64,000 bases of DNA from an uncultured Alphaproteobacteria bacterium (GTDB taxonomy: Bacteria > Pseudomonadota > Alphaproteobacteria > MPNO01 > UBA2964), in the NCBI GenBank assembly GCA_951812775.1, contig OX638326.1, forward strand, positions 3,359,391-3,423,390, written 5' to 3'. Numbering within the stretch: position 1 is the first letter of the stretch; each line of letters starts with the position of its first letter. The notes under the pieces were generated by a model. It did no database searches. It had not been told where the DNA came from and saw only the letters and a program-made list of their open reading frames with translations. Of this stretch, positions 693 through 38,071 are shown one piece after another. Position numbers and translations under genes: made by a program.

Positions 693-1163
693 ATGGCGAA
701 GATTTCTCTCAAAGTGAATGGCGAGACGCATGAAGTCGATTGCGACCCCGCAACACCTTTAATCTATGTCTTGCGCAATCAACTGGATCTGGTTGGGGCA
801 AAGCTTGGCTGCGGACTGGAACAGTGCGGCGCCTGTGCGGTCCTGGTTGATGGCGAGCATACCCTGTCCTGCGTTCGGGCAGCTTCTGAATTCGATAGGG
901 CTGAAATTACCACCGTTGAAGGATTGGCAAAGAGTGGTCAACCCAGCGCCGTGCAACGGGCCTTTATTGAAGAAGGTGCCGCACAATGTGGTTACTGCAC
1001 TGCCGGTCTTGTAATTGCAGCCACCGCTTTGCTGGAAAAGAACCCCAAACCCGATGATGCGGAAATCCGCGAAGCGCTAGATGAGCATCTCTGTCGCTGT
1101 GGTTCTCATTTACGTGTTTTAAAAGCTATTGATCGCGTGGTGCAGGGAGGCGGAAATGCCTGA
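693..1163 (+). CDS. Molybdenum hydroxylase small subunit, two [2Fe-2S] clusters (IorA type)
   Basis: A 156-residue electron-transfer subunit of the xanthine dehydrogenase family. The N-terminal plant-ferredoxin-like domain carries Cys40, Cys45, Cys48 and Cys60 for one [2Fe-2S] cluster. The C-terminal four-helix domain carries Cys99-x2-Cys102 and Cys134-x-Cys136 for the second. Length and motif spacing are normal for CoxS/IorA/NdhS proteins. Its stop overlaps the start of the large subunit at 1156, so the two are translationally coupled. No FAD-binding medium subunit is present, which is typical of isoquinoline 1-oxidoreductase and nicotinate dehydrogenase types that pass electrons to a cytochrome. 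The exact substrate is unknown; an N-heteroaromatic or an aldehyde is likely. Confidence 0.88.
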   Translation: MAKISLKVNGETHEVDCDPATPLIYVLRNQLDLVGAKLGCGLEQCGACAVLVDGEHTLSCVRAASEFDRAEITTVEGLAKSGQPSAVQRAFIEEGAAQCGYCTAGLVIAATALLEKNPKPDDAEIREALDEHLCRCGSHLRVLKAIDRVVQGGGNA

Positions 1164-3306
1164 TAGTGCCAGTCTTGAAAAAAGCCCCGGCCTTGATAAA
1201 TGGATTTCAATCGGCAAGGACGGCCGCGTTCTTATCCATACCGGTAAGGTCGATATTGGTCAGCGTATCTCTACGGCTTTGGCACTGATTGCCGCGGAAG
1301 AGCTTGATGTGGATATTAGCCGTATCGACATCGCGCGGACGGAAACCGGTATCGATCCGGATGAAGGGATTACGTCGGGCAGCAACTCGATGGAAGAAGC
1401 AGGAAATGCGGTGCGGGCCGCATCAGCGACAGCGCGCCGACACCTGCTGTCGCTGGCTGCTGACTCCCTCGGCGTGGATGTGTCGACGCTTGAGATCTCT
1501 GATGGGTTGATCCAATCGCGCGGGACAAATCTTTCCGTTACTTACGAAGAGCTTGCCGATGATCAGCCCTTTGGCATTGATGTTGATCCCGAGGCGCTTG
1601 TCAAAGATCCGGCAAGCTACGGCATTATTGGCAAGCCGACAGTAACCCTTGGTCTTACAGAGATTGTTACCGGCCAACCGCATTTTGTACAGGATATGAA
1701 AATGCCTGGCATGTTGCATGCCCGGGTTGTTCGTCCACCACATTACAAAGCACGCTTAGCGGCACTGGATGATGCCGTGGCTGAGCGGACCTCCAACAGC
1801 GGATGCCAACTGGTGCGCGATGGCAGTTTTCTGGCCGTTGCCAGTGAAGACGAATTTTCTGCTGTTAAGGCAGCCGAGCGATTACGGGAAAACGCTGATT
1901 GGGATCTTGGTGAAGGATTGGAACCGCAGGATGTCTTCCGACGGCTGGTGTCCAATGAACGGGTTAGCCTGCCCGTGGTCGATGGGCTTCCGCAAAAGGA
2001 GCCTGTTGAACCCCTGAAGCCCGCACCAGATAGCGCCGTCTCCACCCTAAACGCGCGATACGAAAAACCGTATCTCATGCATGGTTCGATCGGCCCGTCA
2101 GCGGCCGTCGCCCTTGCAGAAGATGATAAGTTGACAATCTGGAGCCACAGCCAGGGGGTTTATGTCCTGCGTGCCAGCCTTTCTGAGGCTTTAGGCATGG
2201 AAATGGAGGATCTGACGATTCATCACGTGCCCGGTTCAGGCTGCTACGGCCATAACGGCGCGGATGATGCAGCTGTTGATGCCGCGCTGATTGCACTCGC
2301 CATTCCCGGCAAGCCCATCTTGTTGAAATGGACACGTGAGGACGAGCACGCCTGGGAGCCCTATGCATCCTGTATGGCGATGGATTTGACGGCGAGCATT
2401 GATGATGGTGGTAAGGTGGTTGCCTGGTCACAGGAAACCTATAGCGACACCTTTGGCATGCGGCCCCGCCCGGAACCCGGCGGTGCCGGCCCGGCACGAT
2501 TGCTGCCGATGCAATATCGAGAGAACGGAGTGACCCCGCTGGTGCCCAAACCCAACATGGCGCGTCACTCGGGACTGCATCGTAATCTCGATCCGCTTTA
2601 TACATTTGAAAACAAACGGCTGGTCAAAAACCTGGTACGAGATTTGCCGTTGCGCACTTCAGCGCTTCGAACGCTGGGGGCCTTTGCCAATGTATTTGCA
2701 ATCGAGTCCTTCATGGATGAGCTGGCGGAAGAAGCCGGAATTGACCCGGTGACCTTTCGGATGAACCATTTAGAGGATCAAAGAGCAAAGGACGTCCTGC
2801 GGGCGGCGGCTGACAAACTCGGCTGGGGTGATCCGGTTCCAGATGGACGAGGTCGTGGCATCGCTTTTGCACAATATAAAAATATTCAGGCTTATGCCGC
2901 CGTCGCTGTTGAGCTAGAGGTCAATGACAAGGCAGAGGTCGTTATGCATCGTGTCGCGCTCGCTGGAGATGCCGGACAAATTGTCGATCATGCAGGGTTA
3001 ACCGCCCAGTATGAAGGCGGCTTTCTGCAAGCAGCGAGTTGGACCCTCTATGAAGAGGTGACCTATGATCAGACCGGGATCACCAGCCGAGACTGGGAAA
3101 CTTATCCGATCCTTCGCTTCGATAATATTCCCGAAATTGATACGGTGCTGATTGACCAGCCCAATGAGGGGTTTCTCGGTGCCGGAGAGGGTGTCTCAGG
3201 CCCGACGGCGGGAGCCATTGCCAACGCGGTTTACAATGCTGCCGGTCTTAGATTGCGGCGGATGCCTTTTACACCGGATGCTATCCGCGCCGCGGCGATG
3301 GAATAG
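1156..3306 (+). CDS. Molybdenum hydroxylase large subunit (IorB-like)
   Basis: A 716-residue molybdopterin-cytosine-dinucleotide-binding subunit. The N-terminal half is the aldehyde-oxidase-type domain. The C-terminal half ends with GAGEGVSGPTAGAIANAVYN, whose glutamate corresponds to the base that activates the Mo-bound water in this superfamily. The start at 1156 is chosen over an in-frame codon at 1129 because GGAGG lies just before it and it overlaps the small subunit by eight bases. The ordinary arrangement is a small-large heterodimer that hydroxylates a carbon next to a ring nitrogen, or an aldehyde. No signal peptide is visible. The pair sits at the edge of the catabolic region and probably performs the first ring hydroxylation of its substrate. 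Confidence 0.85.
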   Translation: MPDSASLEKSPGLDKWISIGKDGRVLIHTGKVDIGQRISTALALIAAEELDVDISRIDIARTETGIDPDEGITSGSNSMEEAGNAVRAASATARRHLLSLAADSLGVDVSTLEISDGLIQSRGTNLSVTYEELADDQPFGIDVDPEALVKDPASYGIIGKPTVTLGLTEIVTGQPHFVQDMKMPGMLHARVVRPPHYKARLAALDDAVAERTSNSGCQLVRDGSFLAVASEDEFSAVKAAERLRENADWDLGEGLEPQDVFRRLVSNERVSLPVVDGLPQKEPVEPLKPAPDSAVSTLNARYEKPYLMHGSIGPSAAVALAEDDKLTIWSHSQGVYVLRASLSEALGMEMEDLTIHHVPGSGCYGHNGADDAAVDAALIALAIPGKPILLKWTREDEHAWEPYASCMAMDLTASIDDGGKVVAWSQETYSDTFGMRPRPEPGGAGPARLLPMQYRENGVTPLVPKPNMARHSGLHRNLDPLYTFENKRLVKNLVRDLPLRTSALRTLGAFANVFAIESFMDELAEEAGIDPVTFRMNHLEDQRAKDVLRAAADKLGWGDPVPDGRGRGIAFAQYKNIQAYAAVAVELEVNDKAEVVMHRVALAGDAGQIVDHAGLTAQYEGGFLQAASWTLYEEVTYDQTGITSRDWETYPILRFDNIPEIDTVLIDQPNEGFLGAGEGVSGPTAGAIANAVYNAAGLRLRRMPFTPDAIRAAAME

Positions 3307-3318
3307 AGATGACGGGGG

Positions 3319-5130
3319 CTAACTGCCCTCGATTTCTTCACGGTGCATTTCAAGCTCAAGCCACTGCTCCTCTGCTCCCGCCAGTTCGTTCTGGGCGGTT
3401 TCAATCGCTGCTACAGCCTCTTCAAAGGCTTTAGGATCGGTGCTGTATAGCTCTGGATCAGCCAGTGTTGACTGATGTTTATCTATAATAGTTTGCAGCT
3501 TTTCCATCCGCACCGGTAGCGTCTCCAGCGCATGTTTGTCTTTATAAGACAGTTTGCCCTTGCCAGAAGACGAAGAGGACTGAGGTTTGTTTCTTTGTTT
3601 GGGCACGGTGGTTGATTTTGGTGTGGAGGCGCGTCCGCCAAGATCAGCACCGCGCTGGGAAATCATGTCGCTGAAACCACCGGCATATTCAATCCATTCT
3701 CCTTTACCTTCAGAACAGATGATTGAGGTGACGGTTCGGTCGAGAAAGTCGCGGTCGTGGCTGACCAGCAGGACGGTGCCCGGATAGTCGGCAATCATTT
3801 CCTGAAGTAAATCGAGGGTCTCGAGATCAAGATCGTTGGTGGGTTCGTCCAAAATCAACAGGTTGGACGGGCGGGCCAGAGCTCGAGCCAGCATCAGCCG
3901 ACCGCGTTCCCCACCGGACAAAACACCGACCGGGGTTCGTGCTTGCTCCGGTGCAAAAAGAAAATCCTTCATATAGCCAACGACGTGCTTGTTCTGTCCG
4001 CCAACCGATACAATTTCCCCACCGCCGGTCAGCGCGTCGGCGAGTGTCGCATCGGCATCGAGCATTTCACGTTTCTGATCCAGCGTGACCATTTCGAGAT
4101 TGGTGCCATGGCGCATTGTTCCGGTATCCGGGGGGAGGCTTCCGGTTAACATGTTGAGCAGCGTTGTTTTTCCAGCGCCATTTGGGCCGACGATTCCAAT
4201 ACGATCGCCACGCTGAATTCGGATGGAGAAATCTCCGACAACGGGACCTTTGCCAAAATCCTTGGAAATGGATTTGGCTTCCATCACCAGCTTGCCAGAT
4301 TGGGTGGTCTCGGTTTTTGTGAAAGTAACCTGACCGGGTGCTCTGCGTTGCTCTCGCCGTTCTTTCCGTAGCGCAAAAAGCGCCCGTAGACGTCCCTGAT
4401 TACGCTTGCGCCTTGCTGTTACGCCTTTGCGCAGCCATTCGGTTTCTGCAATCAGCTTGCGATCAAGTTTATGACGCTCGGTTTCTTCCTGCTCAACAAT
4501 GCCATCGCGCCAGCTTTCGAATTTACTGAAGTTCTGATCGAGGCGCCGTGTCATGCCTTGGGCAAGCCAAATTGTTGTTCTGGAAAGTTTTTCGAGAAAC
4601 CGCCGGTCATGGCTGATAATGACAATGGCAGATCGCATGGTAGCCAATTCTTTTTCGAGCCACTCGATTACAGGCAGGTCGAGATGATTGGTGGGCTCAT
4701 CCAGCAGTAAAATATCCGGCGCCGGTGCGAGTGCTCGTGCCAGAGCACAGCGCCGGATTTCACCGCCTGACAGCGTCGCGGGGTCTTCATTGCCGGTCAG
4801 GGTAAGTTGGTCCAGCAGGTACTGTGCGCGATAGGGATCATCGCCCGGAGCCAACCCGTCTTCGACATAGTCTAAAGTTGTTTTAAAACCACCCATATCC
4901 GGTTCCTGCGGCAGGTAGCGCACGGTGGTGCCGGGCTGCAGGAAAATCTTTCCGTCATCGGGTTCGACGATACCGGTGGCGATCTTTAACAATGTAGATT
5001 TGCCAGAACCATTGCGGCCAACCAGGCATAGCCGTTCGCCCTCCGAGACAGAAAATTCTGCTCCTTCGAAAAGAGGAGTCCCGCCAAAGGTCAGATCAAT
5101 GTCGCGCAGGATTAAAAGTGGGGGTGCCAT
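3319..5130 (-). CDS. uup: ABC-F family ATPase Uup
   Basis: A 603-residue protein with two ABC ATPase domains in one chain and no membrane segment. Domain one has Walker A GRNGSGKST at residues 38-46, the signature LSGGEIRR and Walker B LLLDEPTNHLD. Domain two has GPNGAGKTT, LSGGERGR and LILDEPTNDLD. A Lys-rich linker and a C-terminal coiled coil (from about LSYKDKHALETLP to the end) follow, as in Uup rather than EttA or YheS. ABC-F proteins bind the ribosome; Uup also affects replication forks and transposon excision. It reads convergently with the preceding oxidoreductase gene and divergently from the dioxygenase gene. It appears intact and is not obviously part of the catabolic pathway. Confidence 0.92.
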   Translation of the reverse strand: MAPPLLILRDIDLTFGGTPLFEGAEFSVSEGERLCLVGRNGSGKSTLLKIATGIVEPDDGKIFLQPGTTVRYLPQEPDMGGFKTTLDYVEDGLAPGDDPYRAQYLLDQLTLTGNEDPATLSGGEIRRCALARALAPAPDILLLDEPTNHLDLPVIEWLEKELATMRSAIVIISHDRRFLEKLSRTTIWLAQGMTRRLDQNFSKFESWRDGIVEQEETERHKLDRKLIAETEWLRKGVTARRKRNQGRLRALFALRKERREQRRAPGQVTFTKTETTQSGKLVMEAKSISKDFGKGPVVGDFSIRIQRGDRIGIVGPNGAGKTTLLNMLTGSLPPDTGTMRHGTNLEMVTLDQKREMLDADATLADALTGGGEIVSVGGQNKHVVGYMKDFLFAPEQARTPVGVLSGGERGRLMLARALARPSNLLILDEPTNDLDLETLDLLQEMIADYPGTVLLVSHDRDFLDRTVTSIICSEGKGEWIEYAGGFSDMISQRGADLGGRASTPKSTTVPKQRNKPQSSSSSGKGKLSYKDKHALETLPVRMEKLQTIIDKHQSTLADPELYSTDPKAFEEAVAAIETAQNELAGAEEQWLELEMHREEIEGS

Positions 5131-5190
5131 GCGGACCCTGTAACGCGACTGACGCCTTACAGCAAGTCTTCTAGCGTTCGGCGATTACTG

Positions 5191-5196
5191 TATAAT
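5191..5196 (+). promoter_or_regulatory. Likely -10 box for the TauD-like gene
   Basis: A perfect TATAAT hexamer lies 37 bases before the ATG at 5233 in the gap between divergent genes. No good -35 hexamer is visible at 16-18 bases spacing, so promoter strength or dependence on an activator is open. Confidence 0.4.
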
Positions 5197-5232
5197 GCGG
5201 CCTTAGCAGATTGGCAGAAAAGGATCACGCTT

Positions 5233-6108
5233 ATGGAAGTTGTACCCCTATCCGATGCTGTTGGTGCAGAAATACGAGATGTCGATCTGCGCGAACCCTT
5301 ATCCCAAAGAACAATTAAAGAAATTGAAAAAGCCTTCCACGATCATGCCATCCTTTTGTTGCGCGGGCAGGATATTACGCTTGAACAGCAAAAAATCTTT
5401 GCGCTGCATTTTGGCGAGCTTGGCAGCCGCAACCGACCGGGCCCGAAACCGAACGAGCTGGATGAGTATGGCGAGCACGTCATGCTGGTTACCAATGTTC
5501 GCGAAAATGGAAAACCTATCGGTTCACTGCCTGATGGCGAAATGACTTTCCATGCCGATACGGCTTATTTCGAATTCCCCTCAAAAGCGACGATGCTTTA
5601 TGCGATGGAATTGCCGAGTTGGGGCGGTAATATCCTGTTTTCCAACTGTTATGCGGCAGCGGAACAACTACTGGAAGAGATCAAAAGGCTTCTCGACGGC
5701 AAAAAGGCCATGCAGGTTTATGAATATGGCACGACGCTGAAGATGAAAGAAAAATACGACCGCGAGAATTTCCCTCACTATGCCCATCCGGTGTTTCGCA
5801 AGCATCCCGAAACAGGTCGCTCAGCGTTGTTTGTTAGTGAGCTAATGACCGAAGAAATTGTCGGATTGCCAAAGGAGGAAAGCGACGCAATTCTTGCAAC
5901 ACTCTTCGAACACCAGAAGAAGCCGGCATTTGTTTACGAACATGAATGGAAAGTTGGCGATCTGGTCTTATGGGACAATCGCTGTACGATTCATGCACGG
6001 ACAGATTTTCCCCGTGATGAACGCCGAATGCTGCGCCGCCTTACAATTCAGGATACCAAACCCGTTATTGAGGGTAGGGCGCCATTTTCACAAGCTGCTG
6101 CTGAATAA
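5233..6108 (+). CDS. TauD/TfdA-family Fe(II)/2-oxoglutarate dioxygenase
   Basis: A 291-residue cytosolic enzyme of the TauD/TfdA family. The metal triad is visible as His107-x-Asp109 in FHADTAY and His254 in CTIHARTD. Arg265 or Arg269 is positioned to bind the 2-oxoglutarate carboxylate. The N-terminal strand PLSDAVGAEIRDVDL is the usual family start. Members couple oxidative decarboxylation of 2-oxoglutarate to hydroxylation, often releasing sulfite, an aldehyde or glyoxylate from taurine, phenoxyacetates or related compounds. The start has AAGGA ten bases upstream. A GMC oxidoreductase follows 77 bases later on the same strand, and the two may be co-transcribed. The substrate cannot be assigned. 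Confidence 0.85.
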   Translation: MEVVPLSDAVGAEIRDVDLREPLSQRTIKEIEKAFHDHAILLLRGQDITLEQQKIFALHFGELGSRNRPGPKPNELDEYGEHVMLVTNVRENGKPIGSLPDGEMTFHADTAYFEFPSKATMLYAMELPSWGGNILFSNCYAAAEQLLEEIKRLLDGKKAMQVYEYGTTLKMKEKYDRENFPHYAHPVFRKHPETGRSALFVSELMTEEIVGLPKEESDAILATLFEHQKKPAFVYEHEWKVGDLVLWDNRCTIHARTDFPRDERRMLRRLTIQDTKPVIEGRAPFSQAAAE

Positions 6109-33283: not shown

Positions 33284-33487
33284 CGCCTCCGCCATTAACC
33301 ATAGATTTCAGAATTTTCAGATAAGGTTTTGAAATAAAAAACACAATATAGTTAATATTCACAAGTTAATCTAAATATCCATAAAAATTTAGATATCTTT
33401 TCTTGAAATTAACTACAAAGGTAACCCATCTTCCTCTCAATAAGACAAAAATAACCTTGTAATATGGTTAACAATTGGGTTGGTGTT
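33284..33487 (+). other. A+T-rich intergenic stretch without recognised features
   Basis: About 200 bases after the monooxygenase stop are visibly much richer in A and T than the surroundings, with runs such as GAAATAAAAAACACAATATA. I see no open frame, RNA gene or clear hairpin here. Composition suggests recently acquired DNA or a promoter-dense region ahead of the next, truncated gene. Confidence 0.5.
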
Positions 33488-33619
33488 ATGGGTCGGATTT
33501 TATCCTTCTCTTTTGTTGTATGGGCGATATCAGCAGTTTCTTTTTCTGCTCATGCGACAAAAGTTGAAACATATAAGAAATCGCCAGAGCTACTTTGCCT
33601 GGTACGGCATATTTATTTT
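33488..33619 (+). pseudogene. Secreted protein gene cut off by the insertion element (possibly a SleB-like cell wall hydrolase)
   Basis: From the ATG at 33488 the frame gives a clear signal peptide, MGRILSFSFVVWAISAVSFS, cleaved after about AHA. About 20 mature residues ending SPELLCLVRHIYF follow before the left inverted repeat of the insertion element begins. The closing pattern Cys-Leu-x-x-x-Ile-Tyr-Phe resembles the start of the SleB/Hydrolase_2 domain, where CLAxNIYFEAR-like motifs occur, so the gene may have encoded a peptidoglycan hydrolase. The match is short and uncertain. The rest of the gene is not found on the far side of the element. Confidence 0.45.
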
Positions 33620-33643
33620 GGAAAATTATATACGAAAGTCACA
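33620..33643 (+). repeat. Left terminal inverted repeat of the IS1595-type element
   Basis: It reads inward as GGAAAATTATATAC, then GAAAGTCACA. It matches the reverse complement of 37957-37980 at 20 of 24 positions, with an unbroken AATTATATAC core. Confidence 0.75.
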
Positions 33644-33703
33644 TTTTAGGCTTGCCTCGACTATGAACAACATTTACATTAAAGTCACAATGGAGGGCAG
33701 GAT

Positions 33704-34681
33704 ATGGCACAAAACGCACCCGGCAAGGCAGATCGTGAAGGCATAAGTCTGATCCAACTTCTTCGTATGTTCCCGGATGATGCATCTGCCGAAAAGTGGT
33801 TTGCAAAGAAGATATGGCCTGATGGTCCCTATTGCCCTCATTGCGGTAGTTTCAACGTCCAGTCCGGCATCAAGCACAAGACGATGACCCATCGCTGCCG
33901 GGATTGCCTCAATCGCCCGATGTTCAGTCTGAAAACGGGCAATGTAATGCAAGGAACGAAACTTGGATACCAAGTTTGGGCAATCGCCATCTATCTTGTG
34001 ACAACCAATCTCAAGGGCGTGTCCAGCATGAAGCTACATCGTGACCTGGAGATTACCCAGAAAAGTGCCTGGCACCTGGCCCATCGCCTTAGAGAAGCGC
34101 ACAAGGTGGGAAAGCCTTTGTTCAACGGCCCTGTTGAGGCCGATGAAACCTACATGGGCGGTAAGGAAAAGAACAAACATTCCCACAAGAAGCTCAAGGC
34201 AGGTCGTGGTGCAGTTGGTAAAACTGCCGTAGCAGGAACAAAAGACCGCGAAACCAACCAGGTCGTAGCGAGGGTTGTTGACAAGACGGACGCAAAAACA
34301 CTCCAAGGGTTTGTCATTGGTCATACCGCCGATTGCGCGACCGTCTATATGGACGAAGCCAGTGCCTATAAGGGTATAAATAGATCACATGAAGCGGTTA
34401 AGCATTCGGTGGGTGAGTATGTCCGGGATCAGGCCTACACCAACGGCCTGGAAAGCTTCTGGTCCGGCCTGAAACGTGGTCATGATGGCGTGTATCACAA
34501 GATGAGTCCCAAGCACCTTGACCGCTATGTGAATGAGTTCTCGGGGAGGCATAACGTTCGGTCCGAAAACATTGTTGACCAGATGACCCAAATGGTTGTG
34601 GGTATGGTTGGCAAGCGCCTTCGGTACGTTGCTTTGATCGCAGATACGGGAATGGAAAGTGGAGCAAGGGCAGTGACATGA
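33704..34681 (+). CDS. IS1595-family transposase (ISXO2-like)
   Basis: A 325-residue transposase. The N-terminal zinc ribbon has Cys44-x2-Cys47 (CPHCGSFNV) and Cys65-x2-Cys68 (HRCRDC), followed by a short helix-turn-helix region (LHRDLEITQKSAWHLAHRLR). The RNase-H-like catalytic core shows Asp147 in VEADETYMGGKEKNKH, a second Asp in ATVYMDEASAY and the N/E region YTNGLESFWSGLKRG, typical of IS1595. GGAGGGCAGGAT precedes the ATG. Its stop overlaps the methyltransferase start by ATGA, so transposase and first passenger are translationally coupled. It appears intact and could still be active. Confidence 0.93.
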   Translation: MAQNAPGKADREGISLIQLLRMFPDDASAEKWFAKKIWPDGPYCPHCGSFNVQSGIKHKTMTHRCRDCLNRPMFSLKTGNVMQGTKLGYQVWAIAIYLVTTNLKGVSSMKLHRDLEITQKSAWHLAHRLREAHKVGKPLFNGPVEADETYMGGKEKNKHSHKKLKAGRGAVGKTAVAGTKDRETNQVVARVVDKTDAKTLQGFVIGHTADCATVYMDEASAYKGINRSHEAVKHSVGEYVRDQAYTNGLESFWSGLKRGHDGVYHKMSPKHLDRYVNEFSGRHNVRSENIVDQMTQMVVGMVGKRLRYVALIADTGMESGARAVT

Positions 34682-36114
34682 CCGCGAACTTCGCCAGCGG
34701 CACAATCTGGACCGGCGACAATCTGGCCGTTTTGCGCGGCATGAACGATGCCTGCGTAGACCTGATCTACCTTGATCCGCCGTTCAACTCCAACCGTACC
34801 TACGAGGCCCCGATAGGCTCAAAAGCGGCGGGTGCCGCGTTCAAGGATACCTGGACACTGGATGATGTTGATGTGTACGAACACGGTGAGATGGCTGACC
34901 GCAACCCGGCAGCCTACGCCATCATTGAGGCGGCACGTCAGGCGTATGGCAAATCGATGCAATCCTACCTTATATTTATGGCCGTGCGGCTTCTGGAAAT
35001 GCGGCGGATACTGAAGCCGACCGGCTCGATCTATCTGCATTGTGACGATACTGCCGGACACTATCTTAAACTTCTCATGGATGGAATTTTCGGCGGCCAT
35101 CAATTTCGCAATGCTATCACTTGGCGTCGTGCGGTATCTCACAATGATCCGAACCGCTACGGAAGGATTTCCGATTATCTTTTGTTCTACACCAGGAGTG
35201 AAAAATGGAGATGGAATGTCGTTCGTGATAATCTTGATGATGAGCAAGTTGAAAAAGCTTACCCACGAACGGACGAGCGCGGGCGTTACCGATCTGACAA
35301 CCTGACTGGCCCCATGCATGGAAAAGGTGCCGGTGAATCTGCACAAGCATGGAATGGCTATGATGTAGCATCACGCAATCGCGTTTGGTCAGCGCCAAAG
35401 AAGGGTGGCTATGCCGACTATATTGAGGAGCACTGGATCCCAGGCTACAAGGCTATCCATGGCGTTCACGCTCGATTGGATGCATTAAATACCGCTAAAC
35501 TGATTGTCCACCCAACGAAGGGGTTTTGGCCTAGTCTGAAACGCTACGCGGATGCAGACCAAGGAAAGCCGATGCAAGATATTATTTTCACACCAACCGG
35601 ATTAACCAATTACTCTGGAGCGGAACGCACCGGCTATCCGACGCAAAAACCACTCGCACTGCTTGAACGCATCATCAAGGCCAGTTCCAATCGCGGCGAT
35701 CTGGTGCTTGATCCGTTCTGTGGTTGCGCAACTACGCTTGTCGCTGCCGACCGGCTGCAACGCAACTGGGCCGGGATCGACCTTTCGCCGCTCGCTATCA
35801 AATTGGTGGATGAGCGAATTGCTGAGGAACGCGGTCTGTGGGGCGGTGCAACGGCATTGACGGAGCCGCCAAAACGCACCGATCTTGGCGAGCTTCCCAA
35901 CTACCGAACCCACCGGCACAGGCTCTACGGCAAACAGGAAGGCGTGTGTGTCGGATGCGAAACACACTTCCCGTTTCGCGTCATGGAAGTTGATCACATT
36001 CTTCCGCGCGTAAAAGGCGGCACGGACCATCCCGAGAACCTTCAATTGCTCTGCTCAGGCTGCAACCGAAGCAAGGGCGGACGCACCATGGCCGAATGGA
36101 GGGCTGCGCAATGA
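34678..36114 (+). CDS. DNA methyltransferase fused to an HNH domain
   Basis: A 478-residue fusion. The first about 390 residues are a beta-class amino-methyltransferase (N6-adenine or N4-cytosine): motif IV LIYLDPPFNSNRTYE with Asp33-Pro-Pro-Phe36 comes before motif I VLDPFCGCATTLVAADRL, with TGYPTQKPLALLERII between. The last about 70 residues form an HNH domain, CVGCETHFPFRVMEVDHILP and NLQLLCSGCNRSKGG, with zinc-type cysteine pairs. Fusion of methyltransferase and nuclease in one chain suggests either a self-contained restriction-modification activity or protection and targeting linked to transposition. It starts inside the transposase stop (ATGA) and overlaps the 54-residue gene in the same way. 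The recognition sequence is unknown. Confidence 0.88.
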   Translation: MTANFASGTIWTGDNLAVLRGMNDACVDLIYLDPPFNSNRTYEAPIGSKAAGAAFKDTWTLDDVDVYEHGEMADRNPAAYAIIEAARQAYGKSMQSYLIFMAVRLLEMRRILKPTGSIYLHCDDTAGHYLKLLMDGIFGGHQFRNAITWRRAVSHNDPNRYGRISDYLLFYTRSEKWRWNVVRDNLDDEQVEKAYPRTDERGRYRSDNLTGPMHGKGAGESAQAWNGYDVASRNRVWSAPKKGGYADYIEEHWIPGYKAIHGVHARLDALNTAKLIVHPTKGFWPSLKRYADADQGKPMQDIIFTPTGLTNYSGAERTGYPTQKPLALLERIIKASSNRGDLVLDPFCGCATTLVAADRLQRNWAGIDLSPLAIKLVDERIAEERGLWGGATALTEPPKRTDLGELPNYRTHRHRLYGKQEGVCVGCETHFPFRVMEVDHILPRVKGGTDHPENLQLLCSGCNRSKGGRTMAEWRAAQ

Positions 36115-36275
36115 ACCGATCCAAACCGGAATTGCGATTGAAGCCGACCACCTATCAACCGGGCAAGGCGGAAATGCAAGATGTTGTCTTGATTGATGCA
36201 ACGCCTGACGAACTCGCAGAAGCTGTGCTCAATCCTGTCAAGCTGATTCGGGATGATGCAAGAAAACCGAATTGA
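36111..36275 (+). CDS. 54-residue passenger protein of the IS1595-type element
   Basis: The frame opens with ATG at 36111, overlapping the methyltransferase stop as ATGA, and runs 54 codons to TGA at 36273-36275. The product begins MNRSKPELRLKPTTYQPGKA, continues with an acidic EMQDVVLIDATPDELAEAV stretch and ends in a basic tail. No signal peptide or membrane segment is visible. The coupling argues that it is a real gene. Small proteins with a similar KxTYQPSKAE-like opening occur next to methyltransferases in related elements, as far as I recall. It may be a cofactor or antitoxin-like partner of the enzyme; this is inference. Confidence 0.65.
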   Translation: MNRSKPELRLKPTTYQPGKAEMQDVVLIDATPDELAEAVLNPVKLIRDDARKPN

Positions 36276-36351
36276 CGTGCATTGAAGGATATCCAATGCC
36301 ATTATACTTGTTGGAAGCAATGATCTGTCCCGCTTGGGCATCTGCGTTTCC

Positions 36352-36384
36352 AAAGGGAGCGGACGGAGGGAATCGAACCCTTTG
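36352..36384 (-). other. tRNA 3'-end-like fragment inside the element
   Basis: On the minus strand AAAGGGTTCGATTCCCTC has the stem-loop of a tRNA T arm, with GGTTCGATTCC being the near-universal loop. CGTCCGCTCC follows in the place of the acceptor 3' strand. No CCA follows, and upstream bases do not fold into a convincing anticodon arm, so this is not an intact tRNA. tRNA 3' ends are common attachment sites for integrases, and such a scrap could mark an earlier integration or a captured boundary between two passenger cassettes. Confidence 0.35.
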
Positions 36385-36432
36385 CCGGGATTAATCGGGC
36401 GCGTAGAATCTGCACCGGAGGCGTGTAACGCG

Positions 36433-37275
36433 ATGAAGCAAAAGAAAATCACCATCGAAGCTTCCCTGGACCATCCCGAAGTTCTCGACATAAAAGACGC
36501 CATGCAACAGGTTATGGACTACTTTGTTCTGCTCACGGATCAAGGGCAGTCTGACATTGTTTGGAATCTTGTGTCCGCGAGTACCAACTCTCCATTTACA
36601 GCAGAAGCAACGCCAGTTGACCTCAGGACCAACGCACCCGCCTTTGGTCAAGTACGTGATTATGTGGCGGTAATCGAGCGCGGCCTTTCTCGCCTCCAAG
36701 ACGGTGAGCCACTGGACGCGGATTTTCCTGCCGAAAAGCGCAAAGTTGTAAAACGCATTTTGCAGCGGAACCTCAATGGAATTGGTTGTACGACAATCGA
36801 ATTGGGGGAAGATGCTGTCTACAGGATTGAGCCGCAACAGGCAGAGCGCTCTTTGGGCGCAATCAACGGCGAAGACGACGAAGAATATGAGTATCTATTC
36901 AGCTCTTTTGCGCGAAAGGAGTATGGCTCCATAGAAGGCCGGATACTTGATCTAAGCACCTCTTATGACAAACCCGCAGTTAAACTGCGCGAGCATCGAA
37001 GCGGACGTGAAATTCAATGTCGAATTTCCGCTGATGCCCGGGATGAAATTGCACGAAGCCTCACTGCCGGCGATGTTTGGGCGCACCGCCGCGCTCGCGT
37101 TCGAGGCGTCATAAATTACGATGCAAACGGGAAGATTCTTCGCGTATCCGATGGCAGAATTGCCTTCATTGAAACCAAAGACTCCAAAGTCAACGACCTT
37201 TATGATCCGGATTTCACCGGCGGACTTCCTGCCTACGAATATTTAGCCAAGTTGCGAGAAAACGAACCTGGCTGA
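36433..37275 (+). CDS. Unrecognised 280-residue passenger protein, partner of the PIN gene
   Basis: I do not recognise this protein. It is 280 residues, soluble, acidic, without signal peptide or membrane helices. The front half is mixed helical, including ASLDHPEVLDIKDAMQQVMD and FPAEKRKVVKRILQRNLNG. The back half looks beta-rich: SIEGRILDLSTSYDKPAVKL, REHRSGREIQCRISAD and WAHRRARVRGVINYDANG, perhaps an OB or SH3-like fold. The ATG at 36433 is chosen because the longer frame from 36334 would translate the tRNA-like fragment; GGAGG lies 13 bases upstream. The PIN-domain gene begins one base after its stop, so the two are made together. A role as antitoxin or specificity factor of the PIN nuclease is a guess from position. 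Confidence 0.72.
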   Translation: MKQKKITIEASLDHPEVLDIKDAMQQVMDYFVLLTDQGQSDIVWNLVSASTNSPFTAEATPVDLRTNAPAFGQVRDYVAVIERGLSRLQDGEPLDADFPAEKRKVVKRILQRNLNGIGCTTIELGEDAVYRIEPQQAERSLGAINGEDDEEYEYLFSSFARKEYGSIEGRILDLSTSYDKPAVKLREHRSGREIQCRISADARDEIARSLTAGDVWAHRRARVRGVINYDANGKILRVSDGRIAFIETKDSKVNDLYDPDFTGGLPAYEYLAKLRENEPG

Positions 37276-37276
37276 T

Positions 37277-37774
37277 GTGCCGAAATACTATTGGGACGCA
37301 TGTCTGTGGATAGAGTTGATCACGCAAGCAGATGCTGACCGTGTGGAGCGCTGTCGGCACGTTATAGACCTCGCTAAACATGGTAAGGTGGAGCTTTGGA
37401 CGTCTGCATTTACCTTGGCAGAGGTCTGGAAAAAGAAGTGTGACGGAGAGTCGGCCGGAATTCAGGAAGAAAAGGACAGGGAGTTTGAGGATTTCATTGA
37501 AGCGGAGTTCATCAAGAAGATCGAAGTCAACGTGGACGTTGGCAATCTAGCCAGACGGCTACTTCGACGGCACTCTGGCCTTGGTAAACCGCAAGATGCA
37601 ATTCACGTCGCAAGCTGTCTGTTGGAAAATCTAGATGAACTCCACACCTTCGATGGAAGTGATCTTTTGAAGTTCGATGGTGTTCTGCCAAGACGCGATC
37701 GGATCAAACTGAATATATGCGCCCCTCCTTTACCGCCCGAGCCAAAGCTGTTTCCGGATCACGACAATGACTAA
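37277..37774 (+). CDS. PIN-domain ribonuclease (VapC-like)
   Basis: A 165-residue PIN-fold protein. The acidic metal cluster is visible: Asp7 in YYWDACLWIELI, Glu49 in FTLAEVWKKK, Asp107 in KPQDAIHVASCL and an Asp in HTFDGSDLLKF (126 or 129). These residues bind Mg or Mn in VapC-type toxins that cut tRNA or rRNA. It is somewhat longer than classical VapC, with a Pro-rich tail. It starts with GTG one base after the partner stop; the ATG at 37275 is out of frame. The partner is far larger than a VapB antitoxin, so it may be an unusual toxin-antitoxin pair, a defence nuclease, or an element-maintenance module. Confidence 0.82.
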   Translation: MPKYYWDACLWIELITQADADRVERCRHVIDLAKHGKVELWTSAFTLAEVWKKKCDGESAGIQEEKDREFEDFIEAEFIKKIEVNVDVGNLARRLLRRHSGLGKPQDAIHVASCLLENLDELHTFDGSDLLKFDGVLPRRDRIKLNICAPPLPPEPKLFPDHDND

Positions 37775-37956
37775 CATCTCAAGGAAGCCGCCTGCCAGCT
37801 AGAGGCTGACGACAATGAAGCGAAGTTCAGCGCCGATCTGAAAAAGGTCGCGACACCTAAAGAGACCAATGACCAAACGACTTCAAACGAGGGCGCTAAA
37901 TCATTCCAATTCGATGGTTTTTCAAATATAACATCACCTTACCAAGGAAACGATTT
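37767..37956 (+). pseudogene. Frameshifted small passenger gene at the right end of the element
   Basis: An ATG at 37767 inside the PIN stop region opens a frame that reaches TAG after eleven codons. Adding one A in the TCAAGGAAG stretch near 37782 gives instead a continuing product, MTNISKEAACQLEADDNEAK, then FSADLKKVATPKETNDQ. Short acidic proteins of the DEAxFxxxLKKIA pattern are familiar near the ends of such elements, to my recollection. The repaired frame stays open into the right inverted repeat by chance. It is a broken small gene with no assigned function. Confidence 0.5.
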
Positions 37957-37980
37957 TGTGACTTTGGTATATAATTCCCG
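37957..37980 (-). repeat. Right terminal inverted repeat of the IS1595-type element
   Basis: Its reverse complement reads CGGGAATTATATACC, then AAAGTCACA, pairing with 33620-33643. The element probably ends at 37979 or 37980; no convincing eight-base direct repeat is seen outside. Confidence 0.75.
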
Positions 37981-38071
37981 ATATTTGGTATGGGTTGGTG
38001 GCGCTGTAATATTCCTATCATCTGTCTATATCGTACGGCGTGAAGCCCAACTTAAGCCGCAACAAAATTAA
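37981..38071 (+). pseudogene. C-terminal tail of an EamA/DMT-type transporter, cut by the insertion element
   Basis: Directly after the right repeat the open frame reads YLVWVGGAVIFLSSVYIVRR, then EAQLKPQQN and TAA at 38069-38071. A single hydrophobic helix followed by Arg-Arg-Glu is the normal end of a drug/metabolite (EamA) transporter. The rest of that gene does not occur on the left side of the element, which instead holds a truncated secreted protein. The piece is short, so the family call is tentative. Confidence 0.5.

Follow-up and report, generated by a model that had tools for sequence, protein, structure and literature searches.

The stretch of DNA analysed here (hereafter the window) comprises 64,000 nt of contig OX638326.1 from an uncultured alphaproteobacterium (assembly GCA_951812775.1), and it contains a transposon that we file, on its sequence features, as a passenger-carrying member of the IS1595 family with variant cargo (Table 1). 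Behind the transposase gene lie four further genes. These encode a DNA methyltransferase fused to a C-terminal HNH domain (MTase-HNH), a product of a 54-aa open reading frame (ORF), a 280-aa protein that we term P280, and a PIN-domain protein. The ends of the element, the movement of a relative with 8-bp duplications, the loss of the methyltransferase in that relative, and the discordant histories of the transposase and of P280-PIN lead us to describe the element as a mosaic of two parts. The first part would consist of the transposase, MTase-HNH and the 54-aa ORF, and the second would be the P280-PIN pair, brought in from another IS1595 element along with the last part of the transposase gene of that element. 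On balance, we favour with modest confidence a two-part, passenger-carrying transposon in which P280-PIN is a toxin-antidote-like passenger.

In the mechanism we propose, the transposase would move everything between the ends and MTase-HNH would serve as a single-chain restriction-modification-like enzyme. P280 would bind nucleic acid and would regulate the PIN ribonuclease or be its antidote, and the pair would work like a toxin-antidote passenger, through addiction or through phage-triggered defence, making loss of the element costly.

The two 23-nt ends of the window element agree at 20 of 23 positions, in keeping with the repeats of about 24 bases that had been noted in an earlier interpretation made without database searches (the sequence-only reading). 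Taken by itself, this inverted repeat is modestly beyond chance, with a score of 17.8 versus a best of 16.6 in 60 shuffles. The ends are settled by a related element present in five copies (L024-L028; loci and genomes are cited by our L and G numbers) in the metagenome-assembled genome (MAG) of an uncultured member of the Rhodobacteraceae (contigs CATOSB01), because all five copies end at the matching bases and are bordered by perfect 8-bp target duplications, a different one at each site. Every MAG copy opens and closes with GGGAATTATATACCAAAGTCACA, giving GGGAATT at both ends. The left end of the window copy opens GAAA rather than GGGA, and the left boundary is uncertain by about 1 nt because these outermost bases deviate from the consensus. 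Four of the MAG copies are 2931 bp in length, the fifth is split by other insertions and measures 7348 bp between its ends, and the pieces that lie within the element are 99.8-100% identical among copies.

Membership in the IS1595 family is indicated by several features. According to the accessible text of one source (PMC8101967), members of the family usually have one transposase gene and an N-terminal zinc finger and make 8-bp duplications. The window element has the DDE_Tnp_IS1595 domain, the N-terminal zinc ribbon and inverted ends whose consensus opens with G residues, and its same-end relatives made 8-bp duplications at 5/5 MAG copies. It is unlike the family in carrying four further genes, including MTase-HNH and P280-PIN, and in the lost duplication of the window copy.

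At their five sites, the MAG copies share with the window element its ends, transposase, 54-aa ORF, P280 and PIN. In each, MTase-HNH is cut to an in-frame scar of 38 codons, in which the first seven codons are joined to the last 29 HNH residues. The methyltransferase is dispensable for the element, because the MAG copies dropped it by in-frame deletion yet keep P280-PIN. We infer that the MAG lineage descends from a full-set element, lost the methyltransferase and spread afterwards, and the near-identity of the copies indicates that this element format was recently mobile without a methyltransferase. The sequence-only reading had proposed, as a check, that one complete gene set should recur between identical repeats at several unrelated places; the ends and the other genes do recur in this way, but the methyltransferase does so only as the scar.

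Evidence for a composite history comes from the uneven divergence between the window element and the MAG copies. The synonymous divergence (dS) is 1.20 for the transposase, 0.76 for the 54-aa ORF, 0.15 for P280 and 0.09 for PIN, while DNA identity is 79% for both the transposase and the 54-aa ORF, 74% for the gap that follows, 95% for P280 and PIN, and 96% for the right end. P280-PIN and the right end thus share a younger history than that of the transposase. Directly before P280, 67 nt starting at 36366 match the terminal stretch of the transposase gene in another IS1595 element (L030) at 45/67 positions, where the best of 20,000 shuffles reached 32, and match both L031 and L029 at 46/67. This transposase remnant was undetected by protein profile in the window, in L025 and in L029. 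Identities between the window element and L030 are 36% for the transposase, 75% for P280 and 83% for PIN, and the corresponding values between L030 and L042 are 70%, 15% and 32%.

Six distinct IS1595 elements, whose transposases are down to 35% identical, enclose the pair between their ends, with five perfect duplications and one of 7/8. Besides the MAG element, these are elements of 2583 bp in Rhodobacteraceae NBU2976 (L030; duplication AAATAAAA), 2709 bp in G042 (L042; AAATATTT), 2663 bp on an IMG/VR contig (L060; GCGAACTT), 3413 bp on a Methylobacterium oryzae plasmid (L010; AATCGGAA) and 4306 bp in G307 (L017; flanks AAATCTCA/AAATCTTA). No convincing pair of repeats encloses L029, L031, L045 or L116, and repeat pairs are present at L118 and L133 without equal 8-bp flanks. 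Since P280-PIN occurs with other IS1595 transposases and also without any, the putative DNA-modification and PIN functions reside in separate exchangeable modules, and the element is a mosaic of such modules. The sequence-only reading had taken it for one small unit moving both functions. Cargo of both kinds does lie within the transposon, but the occurrence of P280 and PIN with other transposases or with none speaks against a fixed two-function unit and leaves the element itself upheld.

Among 385 genomes of the class, a P280 profile detects nine besides the window's own genome, five of which are also found by a single-sequence search, and a wider profile adds three from a 398-genome sample of the phylum. 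IS1595 transposase sequence, intact or broken, lies directly upstream in five of these 12 genomes (G307, G042, G091, G060 and G483) and is lacking upstream in seven (G059, G200, G240, G350, G371, G648 and G738, the last at a contig edge). Our tallies by locus cover 21 P280 loci; they leave out L059 (same P280 as L058), L062 (a 46-aa fragment at a contig end) and L106, L116, L118 and L133, which were found later. Upstream transposase sequence was identified at nine of the 21 by profile and at three more by DNA only, in a scan where the weakest accepted locus, L018 (G060), scored 10.9 bits and the best of 1050 shuffles 4.5. Viewed from the transposases, P280-PIN is near 2/30 group-2 IS1595 loci of the class (1.5-kb flanks) and at four of the best 80 out of 161 IMG/VR IS1595 loci; one of these four is the L060 contig again, and two have weak P280 scores (20 and 36 bits). 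P280-PIN is thus a minority passenger of IS1595 transposases. Within the order to which the window's genome belongs, P280 is present in 1/27 genomes, the own genome only. A plasmid search yielded P280 in one record, which also holds PIN. No partner of the L042 type was found in plasmids, and no P280 of the L058 type in phages. A single-sequence P280 scan of IMG/VR gave none and a profile scan five loci.

What P280 and PIN might do can be considered from their sequences and predicted folds. The four catalytic acids of PIN are invariant in 10/10 aligned open relatives, and a Methylobacterium homologue is annotated as a VapC-family toxin. As in VapBC pairs, a PIN protein with four catalytic acids is encoded next to a partner whose gene comes first. 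Unlike VapB, the partner is not a small DNA-binding antitoxin; it has 280 aa, a predicted oligonucleotide/oligosaccharide-binding (OB) fold and no match in Pfam or NCBIfam at E 1, and because of this length and lack of a match we do not file the pair as VapBC. P280 likewise has no match in PHROGs at E 0.01, and neither P280 nor PIN has a relative of solved structure by sequence. One of ten P280 members gives a tRNA_anti-like match (E 0.099). The whole AlphaFold2 model of P280 is moderate (predicted local distance difference test score, pLDDT, 74.9; predicted template modelling score, pTM, 0.51). Residues 159-248 are predicted to adopt the OB fold, with a best Z of 8.2, in a comparison where Z near 8 is common, and a root-mean-square deviation of 3.3 over 78 residues; the match lists include SSB, PriB and tRNA-synthetase domains. 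The N-terminal domain modelled alone (149 residues) reaches pLDDT 90.1 and pTM 0.85. It has no PDB match by Foldseek at E 0.001, and the best Z in a second look was 4.5; we assign this domain to no known fold.

The pattern of gene loss is a further source of information. Both frames are open in 13 of the 21 P280 loci, and in seven (L031, L044, L055, L020, L058, L061 and L045) P280 is open and PIN is interrupted, truncated or not found. Because nearly all loci had been found through P280, a PIN-profile search of the same 385 genomes was run. It gave 11 matches besides the own genome, nine with P280 alongside (weakly similar, at 48 bits, in G369); of the remaining two, one lies at a contig edge (G312) and the other is a deletion fusion (G406, L108 1138-1704), in which the reading frame runs from transposase residues 1-122 straight into the end of PIN, as an internal deletion would leave. 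Across these 385 genomes, an open P280 has a broken or missing PIN next to it three times (G059, G350 and G091), and the reverse was seen 0 times. The numbers are small, and the direction of loss would fit a toxin with its antidote. Addiction would likewise fit the gene order, the intact PIN acids and the fact that PIN is lost more often than P280. Judged by the order of the genes, their domains and the pattern of loss, a role in defence or as a toxin-antidote-like pair seems the most economical, and we regard addiction or defence as plausible. On two phage-like IMG/VR contigs (L058 3280-4128 and L059 5995-6843), P280 stands without a detectable PIN partner; such PIN-less copies could be captured antidotes.

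A number of observations weigh against the interpretation that we favour. By sequence, P280 resembles no known antitoxin. The reverse pattern of loss does occur in one of the 21 loci, where L029 keeps PIN open and its P280 falls short of the last 13 residues, and the resulting 7:1 tally is drawn mostly from loci found through P280. Nine of the 21 loci have no IS1595 sequence upstream. The full set with an intact methyltransferase was seen only once, in the window copy. In addition, the 98-nt HNH remnant is 92% identical between the window and the MAG copies, above the 79% of the transposase, so that a strict history of two blocks oversimplifies matters. The window copy lacks an 8-bp target duplication (flanks TTATTTTG / GATATTTG, 4/8 equal) and is the sole full-length match in a search of its own genome; because of these two features and its altered left end, it may be immobile.

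A more far-reaching proposal, which we advance tentatively, is that P280-PIN represents a toxin-antidote (or RNase defence) system not described before, in which the partner is a large OB-fold protein. IS1595 transposons would have captured this system and shuffled it among themselves as addiction cargo of their own. Some stand-alone chromosomal pairs would then be transposon relics, for example that of G060 (L018), where an end-like sequence behind PIN matches the L017 end at 19/23 positions and a transposase tail lies upstream. If this proposal is true, elements under 3 kb carry a stabilising system.

Alternatively, the pair could be devoted to phage defence instead of addiction, with P280 sensing foreign nucleic acid and unleashing or guiding PIN, so that the transposon would carry two defence systems. 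We judge this rather unlikely, although methyltransferase-nuclease cargo adjoins the pair both here and in L017, and a predicted OB fold would suit such a sensor. The P280 N-terminal domain finds its best viral fold matches in a pair of predicted phage proteins, at E 2.4e-4 and E 1.4e-3. The latter protein is labelled DUF6575, which is named among anti-phage genes in the accessible portion of PMC9519451, and this resemblance between predicted models is a lead. However, Pfam gives no DUF6575 for P280. PADLOC-DB 2.0.0 has no model that matches PIN and matches P280 only with PDLC01961 at E 0.022, and our unscored impression is that in the loci listed the pair often lies outside obvious defence islands.

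It is less probable still that P280-PIN serves the transposon directly, for instance by regulating the transposase or element RNA, and does not act on the host. The pair does lie directly behind the transposase gene in L010, L017, L030, L042 and L060, but it persists at the nine loci lacking upstream IS1595 sequence and is missing from 28/30 group-2 loci of the class and from 76 of the best 80 IMG/VR loci. A chance neighbourhood of a transposase, unrelated genes and a random inverted repeat, as might be entertained for a single copy without a duplication and with a repeat modestly above shuffles, is contradicted by the five MAG copies with the same ends, gene set and perfect duplications, and can be dismissed. 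Should P280-PIN be an addiction or defence pair, as in the toxin-antidote-like reading that we prefer, it would show that even very small transposons of the insertion-sequence type carry, beside restriction-like cargo, a module for self-preservation that can be exchanged, and it would open a PIN nuclease with a new kind of partner to testing.

Profile matches bear out the transposase, the fusion protein and the PIN nuclease with a large unmatched partner that the sequence-only reading had recognized (Table 1), and its count of five further genes is reduced to four. The tight coupling by ATGA overlaps that it described holds at two junctions, 34678 (transposase/MTase-HNH) and 36111 (MTase-HNH/54-aa ORF). 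It does not extend to P280, which is preceded by 157 bp without a convincing gene, nor to PIN, whose GTG start at 37277 merely abuts the P280 stop codon (TGA, 37273-37275).

Table 1. Features of the window element and its right flank (window coordinates)
Feature	Position	Strand	Evidence
IS1595-family transposon (window element)	33621-37979	cargo genes all +	inverted ends, transposase, MAG relatives
Left terminal inverted repeat	33621..33643	+	GAAAATTATATACGAAAGTCACA; MAG-copy consensus GGGAATTATATACCAAAGTCACA
IS1595-family transposase, 325 aa, zinc ribbon and DDE domain	33704..34681	+	PF12762 E 6.6e-35; PF12760 E 3.6e-8; NF033547 E 1.1e-47
DNA methyltransferase (N6/N4) with C-terminal HNH (MTase-HNH), one ORF of 478 aa	34678..36114	+	PF01555 E 9.8e-42; PF01844 E 1.1e-11
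54-aa ORF	36111..36275	+	no Pfam match; tblastn 78% over 50 aa in MAG copies, 42% over 48 aa in L022
Degraded 3' remnant of another IS1595 transposase gene (L030 type)	36366..36406	+	DNA match to L030
P280, 280 aa: predicted alpha/beta N-terminal domain and OB fold (about 159-248)	36433..37275	+	AlphaFold2 models, fold searches
PIN-domain protein, 165 aa, acids D7 E49 D107 D126 present	37277..37774	+	PF01850 E 1.6e-10
Right terminal inverted repeat	37957..37979	-	reads GGGAATTATATACCAAAGTCACA on - strand, identical to MAG copies
Outside element: last 29 codons and stop of EamA-type transporter	37982..38071	+	tblastx 89% over 27 aa to L051 (same-genus genome)

Single-chain restriction-modification enzymes of a type IIC-like kind join a methyltransferase and a nuclease domain in one chain, and the window MTase-HNH is alike in this respect, its activities being predicted. 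It is unlike them in that for a nuclease it has a short HNH domain (about residues 424-467). The relatives in L017 and L011 carry Mrr-type domains in place of HNH. In L017 a methyltransferase 40.5% identical to that of the window over 390 residues lies on the opposite strand, followed by the Mrr-type domain (E 1.7e-4; 22.1 bits, with the cut-off at 21). IS1595 members can carry methyltransferases; the accessible literature, which takes in few of the subscription papers, yielded a description neither of this nor of a PIN passenger on an IS1595 element.

The transporter fragment beyond the right end provides information on the site of insertion. A full EamA transporter gene is present in L051 (PF00892 E 2.1e-31) and is complete in the same-genus genome G011, and the remainder of the gene was not found at the left side of the window element. 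Because the gene is partly missing here and complete in a genome of the same genus, neighbouring DNA was probably lost after the window copy inserted. No clean empty site was found among six same-genus loci, whose left and right flanks were compared separately. The segment at 33300-33620, between a monooxygenase gene and the left end, holds a 61-aa ORF with a signal-like start and is without a clear counterpart in the same six loci.

Two other IS1595 loci of the window's own genome adjoin methyltransferase genes. L022 (G000:C1:1950000-1960000, about 2124-5521) has ends of the window type (GGGAATTATATAC...) and flanks TAAATATT/TAAATTTA that are equal at 6/8 positions, and it contains a frameshifted transposase, a C5 cytosine methyltransferase, an unassigned 264-aa protein and a distant relative of the 54-aa ORF, which is also kept in the MAG copies. 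In L023 (G000:C1:3488000-3497000, 1105-4050), the third IS1595 transposase locus of this genome, genes for a D12 adenine methyltransferase and for a protein weakly matching SacI endonuclease (E 3.4e-4) come after that of the transposase. Elsewhere, DUF433 and PIN_10 genes resembling a toxin-antitoxin pair (L069 392-1476) and a SocA/Panacea antitoxin domain (L096 854-1312) lie downstream of IS1595 transposases, and no enclosing repeats were found at these two loci. Finally, proteins of one family, marked by a WSLWDM motif, are found repeatedly next to group-2 IS1595 transposases (L070 2564-3352; L077 185-1072, + strand; L095 2637-3578), in each case inside a repeat pair.

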